Translations under genes and position numbers: made by a program | Part shown: piece by piece, positions 1 to 14,461 of the stretch | How positions within the stretch are numbered: position 1 is the stretch's first letter | Layout: every line of letters begins with the position of its first letter | Assembly (NCBI GenBank): GCA_903832025.1 | Contig: CAIKZY010000008.1 | Coordinates: 1-36,779 of the forward strand | Direction: 5' to 3' | Length of the DNA stretch: 36,779 nucleotides | DNA from: an uncultured Actinomycetes bacterium | Lineage (GTDB): Bacteria; Actinomycetota; Actinomycetes; S36-B12 | Notes under the pieces: generated by a model | What the model was told of the DNA's origin: nothing | Seen by the model: the letters and a program-made list of their open reading frames with translations, nothing else | Databases searched by the model: none

Positions 1-826
1 CCGATCTCACGCGCGGACCTTCCAGTCGCCAGGCAAGGCGCTGGACCACCCGCTGGCCCAGTGCCGGTGATCCGGCAACAGCAACGGTATCCGCGTCGGA
101 CAGAGCAATGCGCGCCATGACCTCGTCCAACCAGGAATCCAGGCCCTGCTCATCGATTTCCGAAGTCGGCTCGGCTATCTCGTCCACGACCGTGAAGCCG
201 GCAACCGGATCGCGATCGAGCATGTCCACCACGGTGGACTTGGTCGGCTCCGCGCCGATGACGATCGTGCGATGCAGGAAGTGTCCGTATCGGCGCTCAT
301 GGCGCAACCATGCGCGCAGGCTCCAGCGCACTCCGAGCAGCAGCACGATGCCCACAGCGAAGGTGATCACCACGAAGCCGCGCGACAGTTCCACTTTCAG
401 GACAAAGGCCACGATTGCGATGGCTCCGAACACCACGGCCGTGGCACCCACCACGCGCTTGAATTCCTCCGACCCCACACCCAGGATCCGAGTGTCATAG
501 GCACCGCGGAACAGCAGCACGCCGATCCATGCCAAGACCACGATCACCACGAATGAGACATACGTGAGGTTGTTCGGGGTCACCGAATAGGGAATCGTCC
601 ACCGCAGCACGAAGCCGGTGACACCGGCAATGATGATGGCCAGGAAGTCCAGAACGAACGCCCGAATGGCGTAGACACGCAATGGGTCGCGGCGAAGGTG
701 CGGGCGGTCGCGATGGGAATGGACCTCGGCCCACCCGATCCGTGACGGTGTCTGGGTCTCGGTGGGTTCACCGCCGACTTCGTCGCCGAAGTCGGCGAGG
801 TCACCGGAGACATCCTCGAGCGCCAT
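1..826 (-). CDS. Polyprenyl glycosylphosphotransferase (exopolysaccharide/O-antigen priming), N-terminal part, cut by window edge
   Basis: An open frame of about 275 codons runs leftward off the window without a stop. The ATG at 826 is preceded by a strong AAGGAGGG Shine-Dalgarno. A polar N-terminus is followed by a series of hydrophobic segments (around residues 52-75, 88-105, 125-145 and 150-165). A soluble part then contains HRTIVIGAEPTKSTVVDML, the Rossmann-like CoA-binding domain found between the membrane segments and the catalytic part in WbaP/CpsE-type enzymes. The C-terminal sugar-transferase domain should lie beyond the left edge. By family, these enzymes start a repeat unit by moving a sugar phosphate onto undecaprenyl phosphate at the inner membrane face. 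The family call rests on the N-terminal half only, so the sugar is unknown. It lies near two exported glycosidases on the same strand. Confidence 0.78.
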   Translation of the reverse strand, partial: MALEDVSGDLADFGDEVGGEPTETQTPSRIGWAEVHSHRDRPHLRRDPLRVYAIRAFVLDFLAIIIAGVTGFVLRWTIPYSVTPNNLTYVSFVVIVVLAWIGVLLFRGAYDTRILGVGSEEFKRVVGATAVVFGAIAIVAFVLKVELSRGFVVITFAVGIVLLLGVRWSLRAWLRHERRYGHFLHRTIVIGAEPTKSTVVDMLDRDPVAGFTVVDEIAEPTSEIDEQGLDSWLDEVMARIALSDADTVAVAGSPALGQRVVQRLAWRLEGPRVRS

Positions 827-1241
<415 letters not shown>

Positions 1242-1277
1242 GACTGTAGGCGACAGGATCACCTGTCGCCCACAGTC
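1242..1277 (-). terminator. Hairpin terminator after the glycosidase lipoprotein gene
   Basis: Two 16-base arms, GACTGTAGGCGACAGG and its complement with a single mismatch, flank a 4-nt loop. The structure begins 28 nt after the stop at 1305. There is no T-run, as often seen in high-GC actinobacterial terminators. Confidence 0.65.
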
Positions 1278-1304
1278 ATTGGTCGTTCGTTACCGCGTTG
1301 CCTG

Positions 1305-2594
1305 CTACTGCTGCAGGTAAATCCGCACGGGGATCTCAGTCAGGGTCAACGAAGCCCCGGACGAGCTTTGCGTGCACTGCGCCAGCGGATCGCAGACCAG
1401 TTGCGCATTGTCCGGCGCCTTGTATGCGGCAGTTCCGGTCTCAGCCCAGGCCACGATCCAGCTGGCACCTGCCTTGGAGAACTTGCAGGACACCACGTTG
1501 CCGGTTGTCGTGCAGCCGTTGTAATTGGCACCGGTCATCCAGTTGGACAAGGCAAAGAATCCTTGCTCGGCATCAGTACCCGGGTATGCCTGAATGCCCA
1601 GCCACGGATGCGGCTTCTGGGTCCAGATGTACCAGTACGAGCGGTTGATGCCATACCGCAGATCATCGATGTATGTGCGAACGATGAAGCCGGCCGCGCG
1701 TGCACCAGTGATGTGCTGCTCCGGGATTGAGCCGGGGCCGGCCAGACCGTAGTTCAGCTCGGTGTCCCACAGCTGCACCTTTGCGGGCACTCCAGCGGCC
1801 TTCATCATGGCCTGAACGCCGGTGATGAGCACGCCGCGTGCAGCAGGGTCTCCGGATGCACTGGGGTAGGTGTGGATTGCCAATGCGTCCACCGGCCAGT
1901 TGTAGGCGGCCAGCGCCTTCAGGTATGCCGGGTAGAAGCGCGTCGCCGCACTCGTCAGGCGAAGTGCCGGCGATGCGGCAACGACCGTGGCGGCCGGATC
2001 GATCTTCTTGATGATGGCGTAGGCGTCCTTGGTCATATCGGCCATCTGCTGCGGCGTACCGTTGTAGAACATCTTCAGGTCCGCCTCGTTCCAGACCTCG
2101 TAGGCAGAAATCTTGCCCTTGTAGCGGGTGACGACTGCGGTGACCCAGGCGTCCCAGTCAGCGATGTTCTTCGGTGCTGAGTTCGCACCGGGATACGGCG
2201 GATAGGGATTGGCCGTGGAGGTGTTCGATGCCGCCCACGTGGGAGTGGTACCCAGCACTTCTAGGATCTGGTTGGAGCCCTTGGCCTGGATATTGGCCAC
2301 GGCGTGGTCAAGGTTGTCCCACTTGTAGACACCCTTCTTCAGCTCAATCTGACTCCACGCGGTTCCGTTATCCCATAGGCGAATGGACCCAAATGGCGCC
2401 GACGGCCACGACTGGCCTTCCACGCCTTCGACCGTCATGCCAACAGTCGTAGTCGGAACACCGGGTCCGGCAGGTGCAGTAGGACTGCTCGCTGACGAAC
2501 CGCCCGAGGACGATCCGCCGCACGCAGCCAGCGTCAGCGCCAGGGCAACGAGCCCTGATGCAGCGGTTAGGAGTTTTGTACGGTGCCGAACCAT
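1305..2594 (-). CDS. Lipoprotein glycoside hydrolase, GH39/GH5-like (clan GH-A), paralogue 1
   Basis: 429 aa. The N-terminus MVRHRTKLLTAASGL leads to a lipobox LTLAAC with the lipidated Cys at 25, then a Ser/Gly/Pro-rich linker, so the protein should be anchored outside the membrane. The body resembles clan GH-A barrels: SIRLWD at 70-75, VWNEAD with presumed acid/base Glu170, and LWDTELNYG with presumed nucleophile Glu279. By family these retaining enzymes cut beta-linked polysaccharides; PslG, which trims exopolysaccharide in Pseudomonas, is a GH39 member. The substrate here is unknown. The start at 2594 is chosen because GGAGGA lies 8 nt upstream and a lipoprotein signal follows. It overlaps the end of the upstream paralogue by 28 nt, implying coupled translation. 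Confidence 0.75.
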   Translation of the reverse strand: MVRHRTKLLTAASGLVALALTLAACGGSSSGGSSASSPTAPAGPGVPTTTVGMTVEGVEGQSWPSAPFGSIRLWDNGTAWSQIELKKGVYKWDNLDHAVANIQAKGSNQILEVLGTTPTWAASNTSTANPYPPYPGANSAPKNIADWDAWVTAVVTRYKGKISAYEVWNEADLKMFYNGTPQQMADMTKDAYAIIKKIDPAATVVAASPALRLTSAATRFYPAYLKALAAYNWPVDALAIHTYPSASGDPAARGVLITGVQAMMKAAGVPAKVQLWDTELNYGLAGPGSIPEQHITGARAAGFIVRTYIDDLRYGINRSYWYIWTQKPHPWLGIQAYPGTDAEQGFFALSNWMTGANYNGCTTTGNVVSCKFSKAGASWIVAWAETGTAAYKAPDNAQLVCDPLAQCTQSSSGASLTLTEIPVRIYLQQ

Positions 2595-3796
2595 TCGGGC
2601 ATTCCTCCGATCGTGACTGGCGTGCCCGGAGCCACCGGTACGCATGCGCCGGTTGCATCGCACTCTTGGGTGGCGAAGGACGGCACCGTGAAGGCCCCCG
2701 GTGCCCCTTCTGACCAGGCCACCTGCGCCGGGAAGCGACCGGTGATGTTGCAGACATCAACCGCACCGGTTGTGCACGCGGTCTGGGTATCGGCCAGCCA
2801 CTTCTGAACCGTGGCAAAGCCCTGCGCACCAGCGGTTCCCGGTGACATCTGAATGCCTACCAACGGGTTGCCGTTCTGCCATAGGTACCAATAGGAGCGC
2901 TGCACGCCCAGACGCTGATCGTCCAGGAAGGTCGTGGCCACCCAGGCGGCGGCCTGGGAGCCGGTGATATCCACGTGCGGGTTGCCCGCACCAGGACCTG
3001 CGATGCCGTAATTGATCTCGGTGTCCCACAGCGGCTTGGTTGCCGGAGCACCGGCGGACTTCAACGTGCCGATCGCCTGGCTGATGTACGACGCGCGAAC
3101 TGCAGGAGTGCCCGTGGATGCCGGGTAGGAGTGGATGCTGAACGCATCCACCGGCCAGTGCATCTTCTTCAAGGCCGCCAGGTACTTGGGGTAGAACTTG
3201 TTGTACGCACTTTGCAGGCGCATCGTGGTCGAGGCAGCAACCACCACACCCGTCGGGTCATATTGCTTGATGATCTTGTAGGCCGCCTGCGTCAGGTCAG
3301 CCATCTGCTTGGGCGACCCCTGGAAGAACGTCGGCAGGTTTGCCTCGTTCCAGATCTGGTACGCCTGGATCGACGGCCCGTAGCGCTTGACCACCGCAGT
3401 GACCCAGTTCTTCCACACGGTCATGTTCGGAACTGACGCGGCGCCGGGGTTGGGATAGGAACCGGCCTTCTTGTTCGATGCAGCCCAGGTCGGCGTTGAT
3501 CCCAGGACCACCATGATCTGAGCCTTCTGGGTGTTTGCGGTGCTGATCGCGGCGTCCATGCCATTCCACCAGTAGGTGCTCTTGGACTGCTGCACCTTGC
3601 CCCAGCTGACCCCTGAATCCCACAGACGGATCGAGCCGTAGGGCACCGTGGGGGTGTCACCGGCGGCGATGCCAGGGATGTGCAGGCCAAAGTCTCCGGG
3701 GGAAACGGCGTTGTCTGCCATGGCGGGAGCGGCTGCAGCCAGGCCTCCGGCGACCACGGTCAGGCTTGCCACGGCGGCTACGAGCGCACGACGCAT
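2567..3796 (-). CDS. Secreted glycoside hydrolase, GH39/GH5-like, paralogue 2
   Basis: 409 aa from an ATG at 3796 with GGAAGG 6 nt upstream. A longer reading from 3826 would add ten residues ahead of a perfectly good signal peptide. The signal peptide has an Arg-Arg n-region and likely ends at AMA-DNA (after residue 27); there is no lipobox, so this copy should be released. It aligns along its length with the downstream lipoprotein: SIRLWDSGVSW at 55-65, IWNEAN with Glu151, and LWDTEINYGIAGPG with Glu260. These are the expected catalytic pair of a clan GH-A retaining glycosidase. A released and an anchored copy in one operon suggest two places of action on one polysaccharide. GH family number and substrate cannot be fixed by eye. 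Confidence 0.74.
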   Translation of the reverse strand: MRRALVAAVASLTVVAGGLAAAAPAMADNAVSPGDFGLHIPGIAAGDTPTVPYGSIRLWDSGVSWGKVQQSKSTYWWNGMDAAISTANTQKAQIMVVLGSTPTWAASNKKAGSYPNPGAASVPNMTVWKNWVTAVVKRYGPSIQAYQIWNEANLPTFFQGSPKQMADLTQAAYKIIKQYDPTGVVVAASTTMRLQSAYNKFYPKYLAALKKMHWPVDAFSIHSYPASTGTPAVRASYISQAIGTLKSAGAPATKPLWDTEINYGIAGPGAGNPHVDITGSQAAAWVATTFLDDQRLGVQRSYWYLWQNGNPLVGIQMSPGTAGAQGFATVQKWLADTQTACTTGAVDVCNITGRFPAQVAWSEGAPGAFTVPSFATQECDATGACVPVAPGTPVTIGGMPEWFGTVQNS

Positions 3797-3935
3797 GAAG
3801 AACCTTCCGATAGTGGGACGCACCAACAGCGGTGCTTCGTCAGGCTAGCCCAGGGGCGTGGGCAAACCGCTGATTGAACCCTGTGAGGAACGCAAGAATT
3901 AGGCCAACAGTCGGTGACGAATCTGCCACCAAAAA

Positions 3936-3970
3936 GGTATAAATACCGCAATTACCAACAATTACCGTAT
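3936..3970. repeat. AT-rich patch with an inverted repeat and ACC-ended short repeats
   Basis: Between two leftward genes lies GGTAT-AA-ATACC followed by CAATTACC, CAATTACC and TATTTACC. The patch is much more AT-rich than its surroundings. It could be an operator for the glycosidase operon or a 3' signal of the methyltransferase gene. It contains no T-run hairpin. Confidence 0.4.
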
Positions 3971-4678
3971 TTACCGCTTCCGGAGCACGTAGAGCGACTG
4001 TCCATCGGTCTCACGGCCATACTCGAATCGGTCCACCGCCAGTCCGGCGGCATCCACATGATCCTCAAAGTGCCGGCGGGCAAATCGCGTGCAGTGCAAG
4101 CGGCCCTTCCACTCAAGCGGTCCGTACTGCGCCGGATTTTCCTCCCATGCCGGGACACCTTCCTCCACGAAACAGGTCACCAGCGCCTTGCCAGTCGGTG
4201 ACAGTGCCTGCGCGATGAGCTTCATGTACGCAGGAGTGTCCTGATCATTCATGTGCGAGAAGACCGAGTAGGCGTAGAACACGTCCACTGAACCCGGATC
4301 AGCGGCCAGCGTTCGTTCGGGGGACCCATCGGGGTTGTACCGCTCGTTGGACACATCAACCAGCGTGAAGCGATATCCAGGAGCCGTCAGATGGGCCTGT
4401 GCCCAGCCCAGGACATCCGGCTGCACATCAACGCCGTGGTAGTCGGCGACCGTGCCAAGTCGTTCGCGGACTCCGATCGCCAGGCGGCCAGCACCGCACC
4501 CCCAGTCATACAGGGAGCTCGATGTGGTCAGGCCGCAGTAGTCCTGCAGGCGCGCCACGTCATTGACCGCGGTGTCGATGAACGCTGCATCGTCCTTGAA
4601 GTGCTCACCGCCCATGCGGTACCTGCTCGGCGGCAGGGTCAGTGCGGGAATTGTCGATGCCTTTTTCCGTCCAAACAT
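3971..4678 (-). CDS. Class I SAM-dependent methyltransferase
   Basis: 235 aa when started at ATG 4678. The SAM-binding motif I is LYDWGCGAGRLAIGV, followed by an acidic beta-2 end (YHGVDVQP) and a motif-IV-like DVFYAYSVFSHM, typical of Methyltransf_11/25-type Rossmann enzymes. The substrate is not visible. There is no Shine-Dalgarno, but TAGTCT lies 7 nt upstream of the ATG, fitting a leaderless transcript; a TTG 51 nt upstream would run into the divergent gene. It is encoded head-to-head with a chorismate mutase with 24 bp between start codons, and near polysaccharide genes. Sugar or small-molecule methylation is possible, but this is inference. Confidence 0.72.
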   Translation of the reverse strand: MFGRKKASTIPALTLPPSRYRMGGEHFKDDAAFIDTAVNDVARLQDYCGLTTSSSLYDWGCGAGRLAIGVRERLGTVADYHGVDVQPDVLGWAQAHLTAPGYRFTLVDVSNERYNPDGSPERTLAADPGSVDVFYAYSVFSHMNDQDTPAYMKLIAQALSPTGKALVTCFVEEGVPAWEENPAQYGPLEWKGRLHCTRFARRHFEDHVDAAGLAVDRFEYGRETDGQSLYVLRKR

Positions 4679-4685
4679 GATCGCA

Positions 4686-4695
4686 AGACTACGCT
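4686..4695. promoter_or_regulatory. Overlapping divergent -10 boxes of two leaderless genes
   Basis: TAGTCT (minus strand, 4691-4686) sits 7 nt before the ATG at 4678. TACGCT (plus strand, 4690-4695) sits 7 nt before the GTG at 4703. The hexamers share two base pairs, so polymerase cannot occupy both at once. Neither start has a Shine-Dalgarno. Confidence 0.55.
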
Positions 4696-4702
4696 GATCC
4701 GC

Positions 4703-4996
4703 GTGGATGAACTGTCGCGACTTCGCCAAGAGCTCGATGGAATCGACGCCGGAATCGTTGATGCCATCGCGGATCGATTTGCCATGGTGCGCAAGATCGG
4801 TGATGCCAAGGCTCAGTCCGGTACTGCGGTTCGCGATGTGTCACGTGAGGCAGTGGTGTTCGACAATGTCCGTCAGCGGGCAGTGGACCTCGGGATCAGC
4901 GCGCAGGTCATCACCGAGGTATTCACCGTCTTGATCACCGGTTCGCTGGTTGAACAAGGTCATGACGCCGCGTGGAAGGACGTCAGTCCGAACTAG
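4703..4996 (+). CDS. Chorismate mutase, AroQ class
   Basis: 97 aa from GTG 4703. It matches the all-helical AroQ fold: LRQELDGIDAGIVDAIADRF in helix 1, then VRKIGDAKAQSG, then VRDVSREAVVFDNVRQRA, ending with FTVLITGSLVEQG. The Arg of helix 1, the Lys of IGDAK, the RE pair and the C-terminal S-x-x-x-Q position are the usual active-site landmarks. By family it converts chorismate to prephenate for Phe and Tyr. The length is normal for a stand-alone mutase (about 90-100 aa). A longer upstream reading is rejected because it overlaps the divergent methyltransferase. TACGCT 7 nt before the GTG and no Shine-Dalgarno suggest a leaderless message. Confidence 0.85.
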   Translation: MDELSRLRQELDGIDAGIVDAIADRFAMVRKIGDAKAQSGTAVRDVSREAVVFDNVRQRAVDLGISAQVITEVFTVLITGSLVEQGHDAAWKDVSPN

Positions 4997-5077
4997 ACGT
5001 CAGTCCACATCAGGGACCGGGTCGCACACTGTCTTCGGCATGCACGCGCAGCGGTCGTGCGCTCACGGTGTTGGCGG

Positions 5078-6319
5078 CTATCCGGTGCGACCTGGTGCCA
5101 AGCCGAACTGCGCCGCCTGCTCCCGCAGCTGCTCGCGCGCATCCGGGTGCGCGGCGTGAGCGATCAGATTCGCTGCCTGCTCAGATTGCGAATGGCCGAA
5201 CATCTGCGCGATGCCCTGCTCGGTCGCCACGGCGGTGTGCTGCACGCTGGTGACCGGCTCAGTGAGCTTGCCCACGATCGTTGACTGCTGCGCCTTAGCG
5301 TGCCAACTTGGCAACGCGATGAAGGATTGTCCGCCGCGGGCATGTTGCGCACCAACGACGAAGTCCGTGGCTCCACCGAAGCCCGAGTAGATGCGGTTGC
5401 CAATACGCGATGCATTGGCCTGATCGAACAGGTCGACCTGCAACGCAGCGTTAACACTGGTCATCAATACCTGCCGGGCGATCTGGGCCGGATCATTGAC
5501 GATGTCGGTGCGCAGCATGTGCACCTGCTGGTTGAAGTGCACCCAGTCGTAGAGGTCCTGGGAACCGAACAGGAACGAACTGGTCACCGGCAGCTGATCG
5601 TCCAGGCAACCGGATCGATGCAATTCAGCAACGCCATCGGAGAACATCTCCGTCCAGATTTTCAGCCCGCGATGCCCTCGCAATGCTGTCAGCACGGCAT
5701 CGGGGATCGCACCGATGCCGAGCTGCAGAGTTGCTCCGTCAGCAATACGCGCGGCAATGCTCTGGCCAATGATGTGGGCAGTGTCCCCGAGGTCACCGAC
5801 CGTGTTTGTGGGGACCGGTTCATCCACCTCAACGAGGTAATCGATCTGCGATTCATGGATCTTTGCATCGCCGTACGTGTAGGGCATCTGCCGATTGGCC
5901 TGGGCAATGACCAAGGCGCCGGTGCTCCGAGCAGCCTCGATTGCCGCCGGCAGCACGTTGACTTCGATACCCAAGCTCACGGTGTCCCGATGGCGTGCGG
6001 AGGTGTGCAGCAGCACCGCCTGCGGTCGGCACCGCTGATGAAACAGCACCGGAACCAGCGATAGCCGACAGGGGATGTAATCCAGGCGATGATGACCGCG
6101 CATGGCCGGGCCGACGAAGGTGGTCTCGTAGCGCACCCCTTCTCGATCGGGAAGTGGTCCATGAGCGTTGAGCATGTGCAGGCGATACCTGGGCACTGAT
6201 TCATCCAATGCGGCAAGCAGCACCCGTGGAGTGGCGAAATTTCCGCTGGCGATCACCCGCGCACCGTTGGGCAGTGTCGACAGGATTGCCGAAAGCTGCT
6301 CTGCCGTGATGACGCGCAT
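5078..6319 (-). CDS. Acetyl-CoA hydrolase / 4-hydroxybutyrate CoA-transferase family protein
   Basis: 413 aa, the usual length of this family. It carries the conserved IWTEMFSDG with the catalytic Glu near residue 224, which forms the glutamyl-CoA thioester intermediate. It also has the second-domain signature GFGGATDFVVGA and a C-terminal ATEQGIAQMFG followed by an AANLIAHAAHPDAREQL-like tail. By family, members move CoA between acyl groups (acetate, 4-hydroxybutyrate, propionate, succinate) or hydrolyse acetyl-CoA; the donor and acceptor cannot be told from sequence. It is cytoplasmic, encoded alone, convergent with chorismate mutase and divergent from the fucose synthase gene. Confidence 0.85.
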   Translation of the reverse strand: MRVITAEQLSAILSTLPNGARVIASGNFATPRVLLAALDESVPRYRLHMLNAHGPLPDREGVRYETTFVGPAMRGHHRLDYIPCRLSLVPVLFHQRCRPQAVLLHTSARHRDTVSLGIEVNVLPAAIEAARSTGALVIAQANRQMPYTYGDAKIHESQIDYLVEVDEPVPTNTVGDLGDTAHIIGQSIAARIADGATLQLGIGAIPDAVLTALRGHRGLKIWTEMFSDGVAELHRSGCLDDQLPVTSSFLFGSQDLYDWVHFNQQVHMLRTDIVNDPAQIARQVLMTSVNAALQVDLFDQANASRIGNRIYSGFGGATDFVVGAQHARGGQSFIALPSWHAKAQQSTIVGKLTEPVTSVQHTAVATEQGIAQMFGHSQSEQAANLIAHAAHPDAREQLREQAAQFGLAPGRTG

Positions 6320-6515
6320 GCGCCCAGTCTTGCAGCGTGGACATCAGGCCGGCTGGCTGCGCTCACCGGATCTCCCAGCACCCCTGACCAGGTGACCCAC
6401 CATGCCATCGGTGACGCACCATGGACCGCGGTTCGGCGCGGTGGGTGTCCATGGCCGTGACCGGTTTCGGGCAGTTGCCGGTGCGGCAGTTTCGGGGTGT
6501 GCACCATCGCTATGC

Positions 6516-6521
6516 GACAAT
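6516..6521 (+). promoter_or_regulatory. Probable -10 box (GACAAT) of the fucose synthase gene
   Basis: GACAAT lies 7 nt before ATG 6529, the spacing expected for a leaderless transcript. TATGCG overlaps just upstream as an alternative. No Shine-Dalgarno is present. Confidence 0.35.
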
Positions 6522-6528
6522 CGCCGAC

Positions 6529-7473
6529 ATGGTGTCCACGTTCGCCTGGGGCGATCAGAAGGTCTACGTCGCCGGCCATCGCGGATTAGTGGGATCTGCG
6601 TTAGTGCGTGCGCTGGAGGCTGCAGGAGCCGGTGAGGTCATTGGCTGGAGCAGTGCAGAGTTGGATTTGCGTGATCGCGATGCCACGTTCGATGCCATCA
6701 GCCAGGCAAGACCGGATATCGTGATTGATGCTGCGGCCAAGGTGGGCGGCATCATGGCCAACTCCACATATCCGGTGGAGTTCTTGCGCGACAATGCCCT
6801 GATTCAGACCAACGTCATGGATGCCGCGCATGCGATCGACGTAGATCGTCTGCTCTTCCTGGGCTCAAGCTGCATCTATCCACGCCATGCCACGCAGCCG
6901 ATCAGGGAGTCATCGCTGATGACGGGGCCACTGGAGCCCACCAACCAGGCATATGCCATGGCGAAGATCTCCGGCATCTTCTATATCGAGGCTCATCGAA
7001 CGCAGTACGGCAGGCACTGGATCTCGGCAATGCCCACCAATCTGTATGGCCCCGGTGACAACTTCGACCTGCAGTCCTCGCATGTGCTGCCCGCATTCAT
7101 TCGCCGGTTTCACGAAGCGAAGGTGTCCGGCGCAGCGTCGGTCACCGTGTGGGGTACCGGAGCCCCGCGACGGGAATTTCTCCATGTCGACGACCTGGCG
7201 GCTGCATGCCTGATGCTGCTGGAGCACTACGACTCCGAGCAGACGATCAATGTCGGCCGCGGGCAGGACTTGCCGATTCGCGAGCTGGCGCAGACTGTCG
7301 CTGACGTGGTCGGCTTCACCGGAGCCATCCAGTGGGATGCATCGAAGCCGGACGGCATGCCGCGCAAGCTGCTGGACACCTCGCGGATCACCGAGCTGGG
7401 GTGGAGGCCGCGCATTTCCCTTCGCGATGGCCTGGCCAGCACCTACCAGTGGTACCTGGATACCCATGCCTGA
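6529..7473 (+). CDS. fcl: GDP-L-fucose synthase
   Basis: 314 aa from ATG 6529, the normal length; upstream extension gives non-homologous residues. The NADP-binding motif GHRGLVGSALV is at 16-26. LGSSCIYP (111-118) and Tyr142/Lys146 in YAMAKI form the SDR catalytic triad with Ser113/114. PTNLYGPGDNFD and the C-terminal DGMPRKLLDTSRITELGW region are also typical. By family it epimerises and reduces GDP-4-keto-6-deoxy-mannose to GDP-L-fucose in the cytoplasm. The partner GDP-mannose dehydratase is not in the window, so the precursor must be made elsewhere. Fucose for surface polysaccharide would fit the glycosylphosphotransferase at the left edge. The stop overlaps the next start. Confidence 0.92.
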   Translation: MVSTFAWGDQKVYVAGHRGLVGSALVRALEAAGAGEVIGWSSAELDLRDRDATFDAISQARPDIVIDAAAKVGGIMANSTYPVEFLRDNALIQTNVMDAAHAIDVDRLLFLGSSCIYPRHATQPIRESSLMTGPLEPTNQAYAMAKISGIFYIEAHRTQYGRHWISAMPTNLYGPGDNFDLQSSHVLPAFIRRFHEAKVSGAASVTVWGTGAPRREFLHVDDLAAACLMLLEHYDSEQTINVGRGQDLPIRELAQTVADVVGFTGAIQWDASKPDGMPRKLLDTSRITELGWRPRISLRDGLASTYQWYLDTHA

Positions 7474-11972: not shown

Positions 11973-12701
11973 CTATTGAACTGCCCATGTGCCGGCCGAC
12001 GTGTAGTACGGCTGGCGCTCGCAGACGAATCCACCGGTGCCCTTGTTCGGCCATTGAGCCCAACTCTCACCCCAGCCGCTGTACTGCGCTGCAGCAATGC
12101 CGGGCCAATTGACCCATTGCGGGGCATTGTCGGCACAGTGGGAGCCCTGAGTACGCACATACCCCTGCATGGGAGCAGTCGGCGCGCCATCAGTGCCCGG
12201 TGCGACACCATTGATCACCGGATATGTCTGAGGGACCGCGGGCGAGGGGTCCTCATATTGGTTGTCGATCTCGGCCAGGATGCTCCCGGTCTGCAATGGG
12301 GCACTGATGCCATCGGTGGCATTGACCGTCACGGTCACCGTGTCGGCCACACCTGCGCTGTAGGCCCCCCAGGAACCCGGGGAACCCGGGGAGGGACCGT
12401 AATACCCAATGTTGCCCGTGTAGGAGCTGTAGTCCAAGAAGCCGTACGCGCTAAAAGTGGGCAGAATTCCGTTGAGATTCTCCAGTTCCCAGTACTGATT
12501 CGGGAAATTCGTTCCGTCATATGTGCACGCGGGTCCAAACGTGAACACGATGGTGTCGCCGGCGCTCACCGGCGCATACACCGGCCCGGTGCACGAGATC
12601 GTCACGTTCACCGTGTTGCCCGTCGCCATCGCAGCCGGGGCAGCAATGACCCCTGCCCCTAGCAGTGCCAGGCAGCTCACCATGACTCCAGTGCGTCGCA
12701 C
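11973..12701 (-). CDS. Exported two-domain protein of unknown family, paralogue A
   Basis: 242 aa from GTG 12701, the only usable start before an in-frame TGA upstream. The signal peptide MRRTGVMVSCLALLGAGVIA likely ends at AMA-TGN (residue 26). Domain 1 has Cys37, SAGDTIVF (46-53) and Cys59, probably an immunoglobulin-like or cupredoxin-like beta sandwich. A long Gly/Ser/Tyr/Pro-rich middle follows. Domain 2 has Cys189 and ends SWAQWPNKGTGGFVCERQPY (Cys227) then a G-T-W-A-V tail. The same two-domain plan occurs in the next two genes. There is no membrane anchor or sorting signal. I do not recognise a named family; the protein is exported and probably has two disulfides. Confidence 0.72.
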   Translation of the reverse strand: MRRTGVMVSCLALLGAGVIAAPAAMATGNTVNVTISCTGPVYAPVSAGDTIVFTFGPACTYDGTNFPNQYWELENLNGILPTFSAYGFLDYSSYTGNIGYYGPSPGSPGSWGAYSAGVADTVTVTVNATDGISAPLQTGSILAEIDNQYEDPSPAVPQTYPVINGVAPGTDGAPTAPMQGYVRTQGSHCADNAPQWVNWPGIAAAQYSGWGESWAQWPNKGTGGFVCERQPYYTSAGTWAVQ

Positions 12702-12903: not shown

Positions 12904-13476
12904 CTACGCAACGGTCCATCGACCTTGCGCTTGCTCGTAATGCAGGGTGCGCGAGCACACCGGTCCCCCGGCACCGTGATTGATCCATTGCGCCCAGGTC
13001 AATCCCCGGCCACCGCTGACTGAAGTGCCATAGCTGAAGGCAGTATCGACCACTGCAGCGCACGAACCCGCTGGCGGAACGGGAACTTGCTGAAGGATGT
13101 CGGCAGGCACGTTCTGCATCGGAGCCACAATGGTCAAGGTCGGATTCACCGTGCCCGCAATGGTGGTGGCGACGTCGATGGTCCCCGTTCCGATCACGGT
13201 CAGCACCAGTGTCTGAGCGCCATTGAATGTGTTCGAACTTGCGGTGGCGACGCCATTCAGACTCAGTGTGCAGGTATCCGACGCATCTGGGCGTCCAACC
13301 AATGTGATGGTGTCCCCGGGCTGAGCGACGACAGTGGGCACATCAAACCCCCAATCACTGCAGCCAACGCCAACGGTGTCCGGGTTTGCCTGCGCCAACG
13401 TGACCGGCGCAGATGCCAAGACCACCGCTCCGAGCAGCGCTACCGTTGCCATTCGAACCCTTGCGCGCACGTTCAC
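12904..13476 (-). CDS. Exported two-domain protein of unknown family, paralogue B
   Basis: 190 aa from GTG 13476, chosen because AGAGGA lies just upstream and the protein then begins with a clean signal peptide (MNVRARVRMATVALLGAVVL, cleavage near TLA-QAN). A longer frame to 13611 adds Arg-rich residues without homology. Domain 1 has Cys39, AQPGDTITL (47-55) and Cys69. Domain 2 begins after ILQQVPVPPAGSCA (Cys139) and ends TWAQWINHGAGGPVCSR (Cys174) then a G-R-W-T-V tail. It shares the LQQ-V/L-PVP-x-x-GSCA segment with paralogue C and the WAQW-x-N-x-G-x-GG segment with A. Function unknown; exported. Confidence 0.72.
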   Translation of the reverse strand: MNVRARVRMATVALLGAVVLASAPVTLAQANPDTVGVGCSDWGFDVPTVVAQPGDTITLVGRPDASDTCTLSLNGVATASSNTFNGAQTLVLTVIGTGTIDVATTIAGTVNPTLTIVAPMQNVPADILQQVPVPPAGSCAAVVDTAFSYGTSVSGGRGLTWAQWINHGAGGPVCSRTLHYEQAQGRWTVA

Positions 13477-13849
13477 CTCTGTCCTCTCGCATTCAGCACG
13501 CAACTGTCGACATGCTGTGCTCAGCGTAATGAGGATGCGCGATTTCGTGACCACCCTTGGCCCATGTCTTCGTCCACGGATCGATCGGTATGCCAATTCA
13601 CTCCCGGCCACCAGCAGTCACTATTCACCGCATGGGGATGGCTCGCAGCCTGAGGGCACGGTCATGTCATTGGCTCCCAGAGGAAGATTGCGTTCAGCGC
13701 CTCTTGGCGGGTCTCCTGTTGACTTGGAATTGTGATTCCGGTGATGACGTAAATCGCGGTTGCACGCCGCCATCACTCAGGAGGGCGCCTGATCTTGGCA
13801 GACTGCAAGCCGATTCCTCAAACTGAGGTAGTCGTCAGAGAGGAAACTT
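13477..13849. other. Divergent promoter region between paralogues B and C
   Basis: 373 bp without a convincing gene; frames in it lack ribosome binding sites. It must hold both divergent promoters. On the plus strand TTGGCA (13796-13801) is followed 17 nt later by TCAAAC overlapping the inverted repeat CCTCA-AAC-TGAGG (13816-13828), a possible operator at the -10 of paralogue C. Confidence 0.4.
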
Positions 13850-14461
13850 ATGAAGGCTCAAACCAGTCGCAGTCGTCGCCGTATCACCGCAATGGCGATC
13901 ACTGTCTCAGCGCTCGTGGGTGGAGGCCTGCTTTCGGCATCGCCAGCGTTCGCCGCCAATGTCGGCACGTATAGCGTCAACTGCGCAAGCACGAGTTACT
14001 CAGTACAACCTATTAACGCTGCAGTTGGAGACACCGTCACCATCACGAACACAGGTTCGGGCCCGTGCGACGTGCGCGTCTACGGCGCGACCTCCAGCGG
14101 CACTGTGGCTGCTGACGGCTTGGCGGCGGGGGATACAGATACGTTCACGTTCACCGATGTCGGCGTAGATTTCGCGATCGTGGCCGACAACCTCTACCCC
14201 TCAAACAGCTCGACCTACGGAATCGCCCTGGTGGCCACCGTCTCCGCAGATGTGGCCCCGACGGTCTCCGCGGCGGAATACCTCCAGCAGCTTCCTGTAC
14301 CGGCATCAGGCTCGTGTGCTGATGTGAAGGATGCGGATTACGCATGGAACACCGGAGTCACCGGCGGCTGGTCAAAGGCTTGGGGCGACTGGAACCACAA
14401 CTGGGTGTGCAGCCGAGTCCTGACCAACGCCGGCGGAACCTGGCACACCACCAACTCCTAA
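13850..14461 (+). CDS. Exported two-domain protein of unknown family, paralogue C
   Basis: 203 aa from ATG 13850 with GAGAGGA 6 nt upstream. The signal peptide has a strongly basic n-region (RSRRR) and likely ends at AFA-ANV (residue 35). Domain 1: Cys45, AAVGDTVTI (58-66), Cys73. Domain 2: YLQQLPVPASGSCADVKDAD (Cys156) to WGDWNHNWVCSR (Cys187), ending with G-T-W. The G-rich loop before the last Cys is shorter than in A and B. Its own promoter and a strong terminator (14497-14537) make it a single-gene unit diverging from A and B. Function unknown. Confidence 0.74.
   Translation: MKAQTSRSRRRITAMAITVSALVGGGLLSASPAFAANVGTYSVNCASTSYSVQPINAAVGDTVTITNTGSGPCDVRVYGATSSGTVAADGLAAGDTDTFTFTDVGVDFAIVADNLYPSNSSTYGIALVATVSADVAPTVSAAEYLQQLPVPASGSCADVKDADYAWNTGVTGGWSKAWGDWNHNWVCSRVLTNAGGTWHTTNS

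Follow-up and report, generated by a model that had tools for sequence, protein, structure and literature searches.

A tandem pair of PslG-like glycoside hydrolases, one predicted to be anchored and one released, near a polysaccharide-priming transferase gene in an uncultured actinobacterium

The overlapping gene pair and its flanks

The window, by which we mean the whole 36,779-nt stretch of DNA from an uncultured member of the Actinomycetes that was analysed, carries near its left end two hydrolase genes, GH-B and GH-A, whose products are paralogues with 45% identity over 372 aligned columns (Table 1). A sequence-only reading of the window had claimed that the 2 genes overlap by 28 nt and share a pair of catalytic Glu residues, and reading both open reading frames bore this out. 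The sequence GGAGG lies just 5' of the GH-A start, within GH-B. The same reading had assigned a lipobox to one paralogue and a cleavable signal to the other. Sequence patterns agree: GH-A has the lipobox and GH-B a plain signal peptide, with no lipobox found in GH-B by an N-terminal pattern scan. The pattern used, [LVIMA][ASTVIGL][GAS]C near the N-terminus, is our own and fairly lax. On its basis GH-A is a predicted lipoprotein, and the 2 enzymes are predicted to be anchored (GH-A) and released (GH-B).

Table 1. Features of the locus (positions are those of the window unless a contig is named)
Feature	Position	Strand	Remarks
Polyprenyl glycosylphosphotransferase, N-terminal part, truncated by contig end	2-826	-	CoA_binding_3, E 8e-13
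18-bp hairpin 3' of GH-A stop	1240-1279	-	Possible end of a methyltransferase/GH-B/GH-A transcript
GH-A, PslG/GH39-like hydrolase, predicted lipoprotein	1305-2594	-	429 aa
GH-A Glu279, predicted nucleophile (WDTE)	1758-1760	-	
GH-A Glu170, predicted acid/base (WNE)	2085-2087	-	Aligns with PslG WNE motif
GH-A lipobox LAAC (Cys25)	2520-2531	-	Followed by a Ser/Gly/Pro/Thr-rich linker
Overlap of GH-B end and GH-A start	2567-2594	-	28 nt
GH-B, GH-A paralogue with Sec-type signal peptide	2567-3796	-	409 aa; AMA before D28
GH-B Glu260, predicted nucleophile	3017-3019	-	Nearly invariant in a 50-row alignment
GH-B Glu151, predicted acid/base	3344-3346	-	
SAM-dependent methyltransferase, upstream of GH-B	3971-4678	-	Pfam Methyltransf_25, 1.5e-10
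Rest of the transferase, very probably	G000:C174:3-650		

The next gene on the same strand had been read as encoding a polyprenyl glycosylphosphotransferase, and its domain match supports that identification. Its start is best set at position 826, an ATG after AAGGAGGGGTG; the match to TIGR03025 (E 2e-22) falls far under the cut-off, the protein being partial. The start of the methyltransferase gene was picked by eye using the N-termini of relatives. Between GH-A and the transferase gene lie 478 nt, which hold a hairpin and a perfect tandem repeat of the 7-nt unit TGCTCAG (1203-1239, 5.3 copies). When the hairpin region was folded as a segment of 105 nt it gave a z of -3.1, and 0 of 200 shuffles folded as well. 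A pattern scan found no T run at this hairpin, and scans of positions 700-5200 for promoters and terminators gave nothing above shuffles. Of 8 loci folded, four (the window, G025, G001 and G002) have a strong hairpin after GH-A, one (G031) has a hairpin of intermediate strength, and three (G021, G018 and G015) have none. Because 478 nt, an 18-bp hairpin and a 5.3-copy repeat intervene, co-transcription of GH-A with the transferase gene appears doubtful in the window; the hairpin and the length of the gap therefore suggest that the transcript may consist of the methyltransferase gene, GH-B and GH-A.

Further along the window, 3 small secreted proteins are encoded at 11973-12701 (-), 12904-13611 (-) and 13850-14461 (+). 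Judged by eye, their C-termini have Trp, GG and VC.R arranged in a common pattern, and Pfam returned no match to them at E 0.01. A scan against Rfam at gathering thresholds identified two tRNAs.

Enzyme family and linkage to a polysaccharide cluster

Neither hydrolase of the window reached the cut-off of 26 bits for Pfam GH39 (PF01229), GH-A scoring 24.8 and GH-B 18.5. GH-A passed the cut-off for GH10 (PF00331; 23.5 vs 22.1) and GH-B that for GH5 (PF00150; 25.4 vs 23.5). The GH39 cut-off was reached by 6 of 10 relatives scanned (28.5-46.1), namely 5 of 5 GH-A and 1 of 1 GH-B orthologues and 0 of 4 unpaired proteins; the five GH-A orthologues passed the GH10 cut-off as well. In another family of the order (f4), a lipoprotein scored 21.6 for GH39, and its soluble counterpart from G042 was not listed for that model. 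NCBIfam gave the hydrolases no useful name. Since a single protein can pass 2 or more related barrel models, the family is not decided by Pfam, and on these scores the protein family is at the edge of the GH39 model.

We next consider the fold. An AlphaFold2 model of GH-B had a mean pLDDT of 66.8, with parts of the barrel above 90 and the last hundred residues poor. Foldseek searches with this model placed PslG at ranks 1-3 (E 6e-12 to 1.5e-11). VIA aligned it with PslG at Z 21.6 over 262 residues and 3.3 A, a score tied within 1 Z with those of a Croceicoccus glucosidase and GH39 xylosidases. A profile of the family matched a GH39 xylosidase first (1.9e-14) and PslG second (4e-14), with both catalytic Glu motifs of PslG aligned. 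In an alignment from which two rows from G052 had been removed, all 55 sequences, the 2 from the window among them, have both catalytic Glu residues. Clan GH-A glycosidases fill the fold lists, and the proteins carry the WNE acid/base together with a second Glu, as expected for that clan. The nearest solved structure by Foldseek is PslG, and the genes lie at an exopolysaccharide synthesis cluster through the contig join described below, both of which mark a PslG-type enzyme; G001 and G002 are exceptions as regards the cluster. We would call GH-A and GH-B PslG/GH39-like, without formally filing them under GH39. Thus, the original description of the pair as GH39-like holds for the nearest folds, which are PslG and GH39 enzymes, and for the orthologues that pass the GH39 model, but is less secure for the window pair itself, which misses GH39 and passes GH10 or GH5.

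The transferase gene runs off the contig, and in the window genome PF02397 was found in two places, one of which (C174:69-629) is at the very start of a contig. Compared with a relative of 506 aa (L096), the window part stops at residue 272 and the C174 part starts at residue 292, and among relatives with a match to each part, 17 of 17 show this 19-residue gap. No exact overlap of at least 20 bases was found between the end of the window contig and that of C174. This agreement across relatives makes it very probable that C174, a contig of the same genome, opens with the missing half of the transferase. From there onward C174 encodes DUF4012, a polytopic protein (11 segments in a simple hydropathy scan), RmlC, glycosyltransferases, an ABC2 permease, an ABC ATPase with Wzt_C and a nucleotidyltransferase, and relatives show a similar gene order. 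To judge from the permease and the Wzt_C-bearing ATPase, the exporter is of the Wzm/Wzt type. The polysaccharide cluster with export genes that the sequence-only reading had asked for leftward of the pair is therefore found, in ABC form, by way of this inferred join.

A GDP-L-fucose synthase-like gene (6421-7473; 462.6 bits against a cut-off of 500) lies in the window, divergent from the pair, and such a gene is near the pair in many relatives. This gene and RmlC are a hint that the polymer contains deoxyhexoses.

Conservation and recurrence of the pair

GH-B had a match at E 0.001 in 35 of 59 genomes, its own included, and order-wide 82 of 166 genomes matched the family profile at E 1e-40. 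Reading of individual loci (22 plus 16) yielded at least 38 in the family, the window included, in which GH-B precedes GH-A on one strand; the order-wide search hints at more. Omitted from this count were G054 (L111), G010 (L141) and G030 (L142), in which a hydrolase fragment, with neither its N-terminus nor a GH-B gene, lies just before the transferase gene at a contig end. The lipobox pattern was present in 38 of 38 GH-A proteins and in 0 of the 37 GH-B proteins with a readable N-terminus. For G024 this N-terminus comes from a fragment on another contig taken as the same gene, and G091, where it is cut, is not among the 37. GH-B and GH-A overlap by 13-91 nt, always 3n+1, in 37 of the 38 loci; the remaining locus, G034, was not scored, its GH-B frame being broken in the assembly. 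Mean identity among relatives is 70% for GH-A and 62% for GH-B, and in comparisons among 19 of the 22 genomes GH-A is the more conserved protein for 161 of 171 pairs, which are non-independent. Better conservation of GH-A would fit work alongside the synthesis machinery.

The surroundings of the pair are conserved as well. Of the 38 loci, 36 extend far enough to be tested for the transferase gene (those of G029 and G120 stop short), and 34 of these 36 carry it on the strand of the pair. In G003, G032 and G118 it is upstream of GH-B; in G115 it is about 4.5 kb from the pair and in G015 about 8.6 kb. G001 and G002 have no transferase gene beside the pair; their cluster genes sit on separate contigs, and a search of G002 did not find the transferase. 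The methyltransferase gene precedes GH-B, in the same orientation, at 35 of 36 testable loci; in G115 it did not appear within the stretch read. Of 35 family genomes, 22 have the pair and 13 lack it. The polytopic cluster protein is present in 19 of the 22 and 0 of the 13 (Fisher 4e-7) and the transferase in 20 and 3, respectively (8e-5), figures based on presence classified by hand and on statistics that ignore phylogeny. The transferase was counted in the absence of a full pair in G010, G017 and G030, the pair in the absence of the transferase in G002 and G029, and a weak fragment of the polytopic protein in G029 was scored as present. The window genome also encodes a third paralogue on contig C53 (L112:2534-3841), with a signal peptide and without a lipobox, and single copies related to it are found in G001, G002, G010 and G022.

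In a tree of these proteins GH-A forms one clade (100/100), and GH-B groups with two unpaired relatives in another (100/99); paired GH-B proteins alone are weakly supported as a clade (81/57). In two f4 genomes, G037 and G042, the order of the tandem pair is reversed, the lipobox gene coming first, and the four proteins concerned group in a clade of their own (100/99). G071, which was left out of the tree, has the same lipobox-first arrangement. The f4 pair of G042 adjoins an O-antigen ligase-like Wzy_C gene (L118:5721-13616), close to hexapeptide transferase, DegT aminotransferase and GFO/IDH/MocA genes, which are surroundings of the polysaccharide type. A further f4 genome, G072, carries three hydrolase copies in tandem (L148:7623-11796), and the lipobox pattern failed in all three. 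No tandem pair was present in the loci read from the f6 genomes G142 and G165.

Related loci outside the family, mostly from Chloroflexota, have at least two hydrolase matches in 28 of 57 cases, and in 22 of these 28 tandem loci a non-lipobox gene precedes a lipobox gene, in two tree groups; the lipobox pattern applied here was laxer than that used for the family, N being allowed, and the loci were sampled non-randomly. The exceptions comprise L040 and L057 (near-lipobox only), L035 and L036 (none), and L064 and L068 (first gene cut by the locus end). In L043, L062, L074 and L075 the non-lipobox partner exceeds 1000 aa; its N-terminus is hydrophobic, and this protein too may be held at the membrane.

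A single lipoprotein clade within the order was rejected (AU p 2.0e-6; 25 of 55 rows held together), as was a single clade after 40 Chloroflexota-type segments had been added (AU p 2.2e-6; 28 of 52 rows); the lipobox-defined constraint group was chosen after the first tree had been seen. The 52-row tree implies at least 4 changes of lipobox state overall, although it is a quick tree of selected segments from tandem loci and carries a long-branch warning. Taken together, these findings suggest that the split between anchored and non-anchored enzymes arose more than once. With somewhat less than even confidence, we raise the idea that a tandem pair of anchored and released PslG-type enzymes is a recurrent convergent solution, reached in the host family (released first), in another family of the order (anchored first) and at least once in Chloroflexota, both sites of action being selected for.

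Proposed roles, alternatives and precedents

We consider it fairly probable that GH-A and GH-B, as PslG/GH39-like hydrolases, have as their substrate the polysaccharide that the cell itself makes, with GH-A working at the membrane and GH-B on polymer already released. Both would be clan GH-A hydrolases, presumably retaining. A lipid anchor would hold GH-A on the outside of the membrane, at the point where the ABC exporter delivers the chains that the glycosylphosphotransferase has started. There it would cut nascent chains and so set their length, release them or remove stalled ones. After losing its signal peptide, GH-B would leave the membrane and trim polymer in the wall or medium. The 2 genes would be translationally coupled through their overlap, probably on the methyltransferase/GH-B/GH-A transcript. 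What the analysis shows is the sequence, both Glu residues, the signals, the overlap, the cluster context, the conservation and the nearest folds; we infer the division of labour, the substrate, the activity, the anchoring and release, and the transcript of the pair. Counted against a role on the cell's own polysaccharide are the separation of pair and cluster in G001 and G002, the 478-nt gap with its hairpin, the Chloroflexota loci, the missed GH39 cut-off and the moderate AlphaFold2 model. The unit of synthesis plus trimming proposed from the sequence alone thus survives as a linkage to the cluster; as a single transcript with the transferase gene it probably does not exist in this genome, and G001 and G002 keep the pair apart from the cluster.

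Might the pair instead be ordinary scavenging glycosidases for outside polysaccharides such as xylan or glucans, located near the cluster by chance? The GH10 and GH5 matches, the former common to all 5 GH-A orthologues scanned, would suit such enzymes, as would the existence of the C53 paralogue. So would the distant Chloroflexota homologues, since 0 of 57 of those loci had a relative of the transferase, DUF4012 or the polytopic protein (E 1e-12, in flanks that are short at some loci), and at the two loci read for this purpose (L045 and L058) unannotated neighbours resemble housekeeping genes by eye. Set against this are the linkage to the transferase gene across the family, the co-occurrence with the cluster protein and a best structural match that is PslG, and we regard scavenging as unlikely. 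Retaining clan GH-A enzymes are capable of transglycosylation, and the pair could be transglycosidases that shift chains from the lipid carrier to the wall or other acceptors. A lipoprotein would be located where the acceptors are, and the linkage of a methyltransferase gene to the pair at 35 of 36 loci also speaks for this; however, nothing in the sequence points to transglycosylation, and the closest characterised fold, PslG, is described in an abstract as a retaining endo-β-glucosidase, leaving this explanation highly improbable. Least probable of all is a duplication without distinct roles, in which the lipobox is incidental: the identity of 45% and the shared catalytic residues do point to similar chemistry, but the split is family-wide, follows the 2 well-supported clades and separates GH-A from GH-B without exception in the lipobox scan.

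Action on the cell's own polysaccharide, our preferred reading, has precedents, which we compared using published accounts of PslG, PlyA/PlyB and LamH (PMC9075953, PMC6813494, PMC9298526, PMC11233589, PMC11912335). According to these accounts, Psl production in Pseudomonas aeruginosa depends critically on PslG at the inner membrane, where the protein is full-length; PslG without its signal peptide is found in the periplasm. PslA, PslD and PslE are said there to help hold PslG in the membrane; direct contact between PslA and PslG was reportedly not detected, and PslA is likened to WbaP. The catalytic residues of PslG are given as E165/E276 (PMC9075953). The window pair resembles PslG in that PslG is the first Foldseek match and both catalytic motifs align, the Glu residues of each window protein being 109 residues apart. 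It also resembles PslG in belonging to a polysaccharide cluster with a transferase and in having, by prediction, membrane-held and released forms. In contrast, both forms of PslG are described as products of one gene, whereas the window has two genes with different signals; identity is about 20%, the host is actinobacterial, as the arrangement of genes near dnaA/gyrB also indicates, and export looks ABC-type from gene order.

Rhizobium leguminosarum likewise is reported to have two glycanases for its own exopolysaccharide, PlyA appearing to be retained on the cell surface while PlyB diffuses. Unlike the window pair, these are described as using type I secretion and cadherin-like domains, not a lipobox vs a signal peptide, and as both active only at the cell surface; the likeness is one of description. 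LamH of mycobacteria is similarly reported as an actinobacterial glycoside hydrolase tied to release of an envelope polysaccharide, but it is a GH76 enzyme without a detectable signal sequence, the sole GH76 there, and the polysaccharide is arabinomannan. We recognised no description of such an anchored/released pair in this actinobacterial group among the literature matches listed.

Why polysaccharide clusters carry hydrolases of their own has been called elusive (PMC9075953). If the proposed roles are true, the membrane and released functions that are mixed in one PslG polypeptide would sit on separate genes, and each could therefore be removed or relocated alone. If recurrence in other lineages holds, these would provide natural replicates. 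Related bacteria keep the split, and so an enzyme at the cell and one away from it may each have a trimming job of its own.
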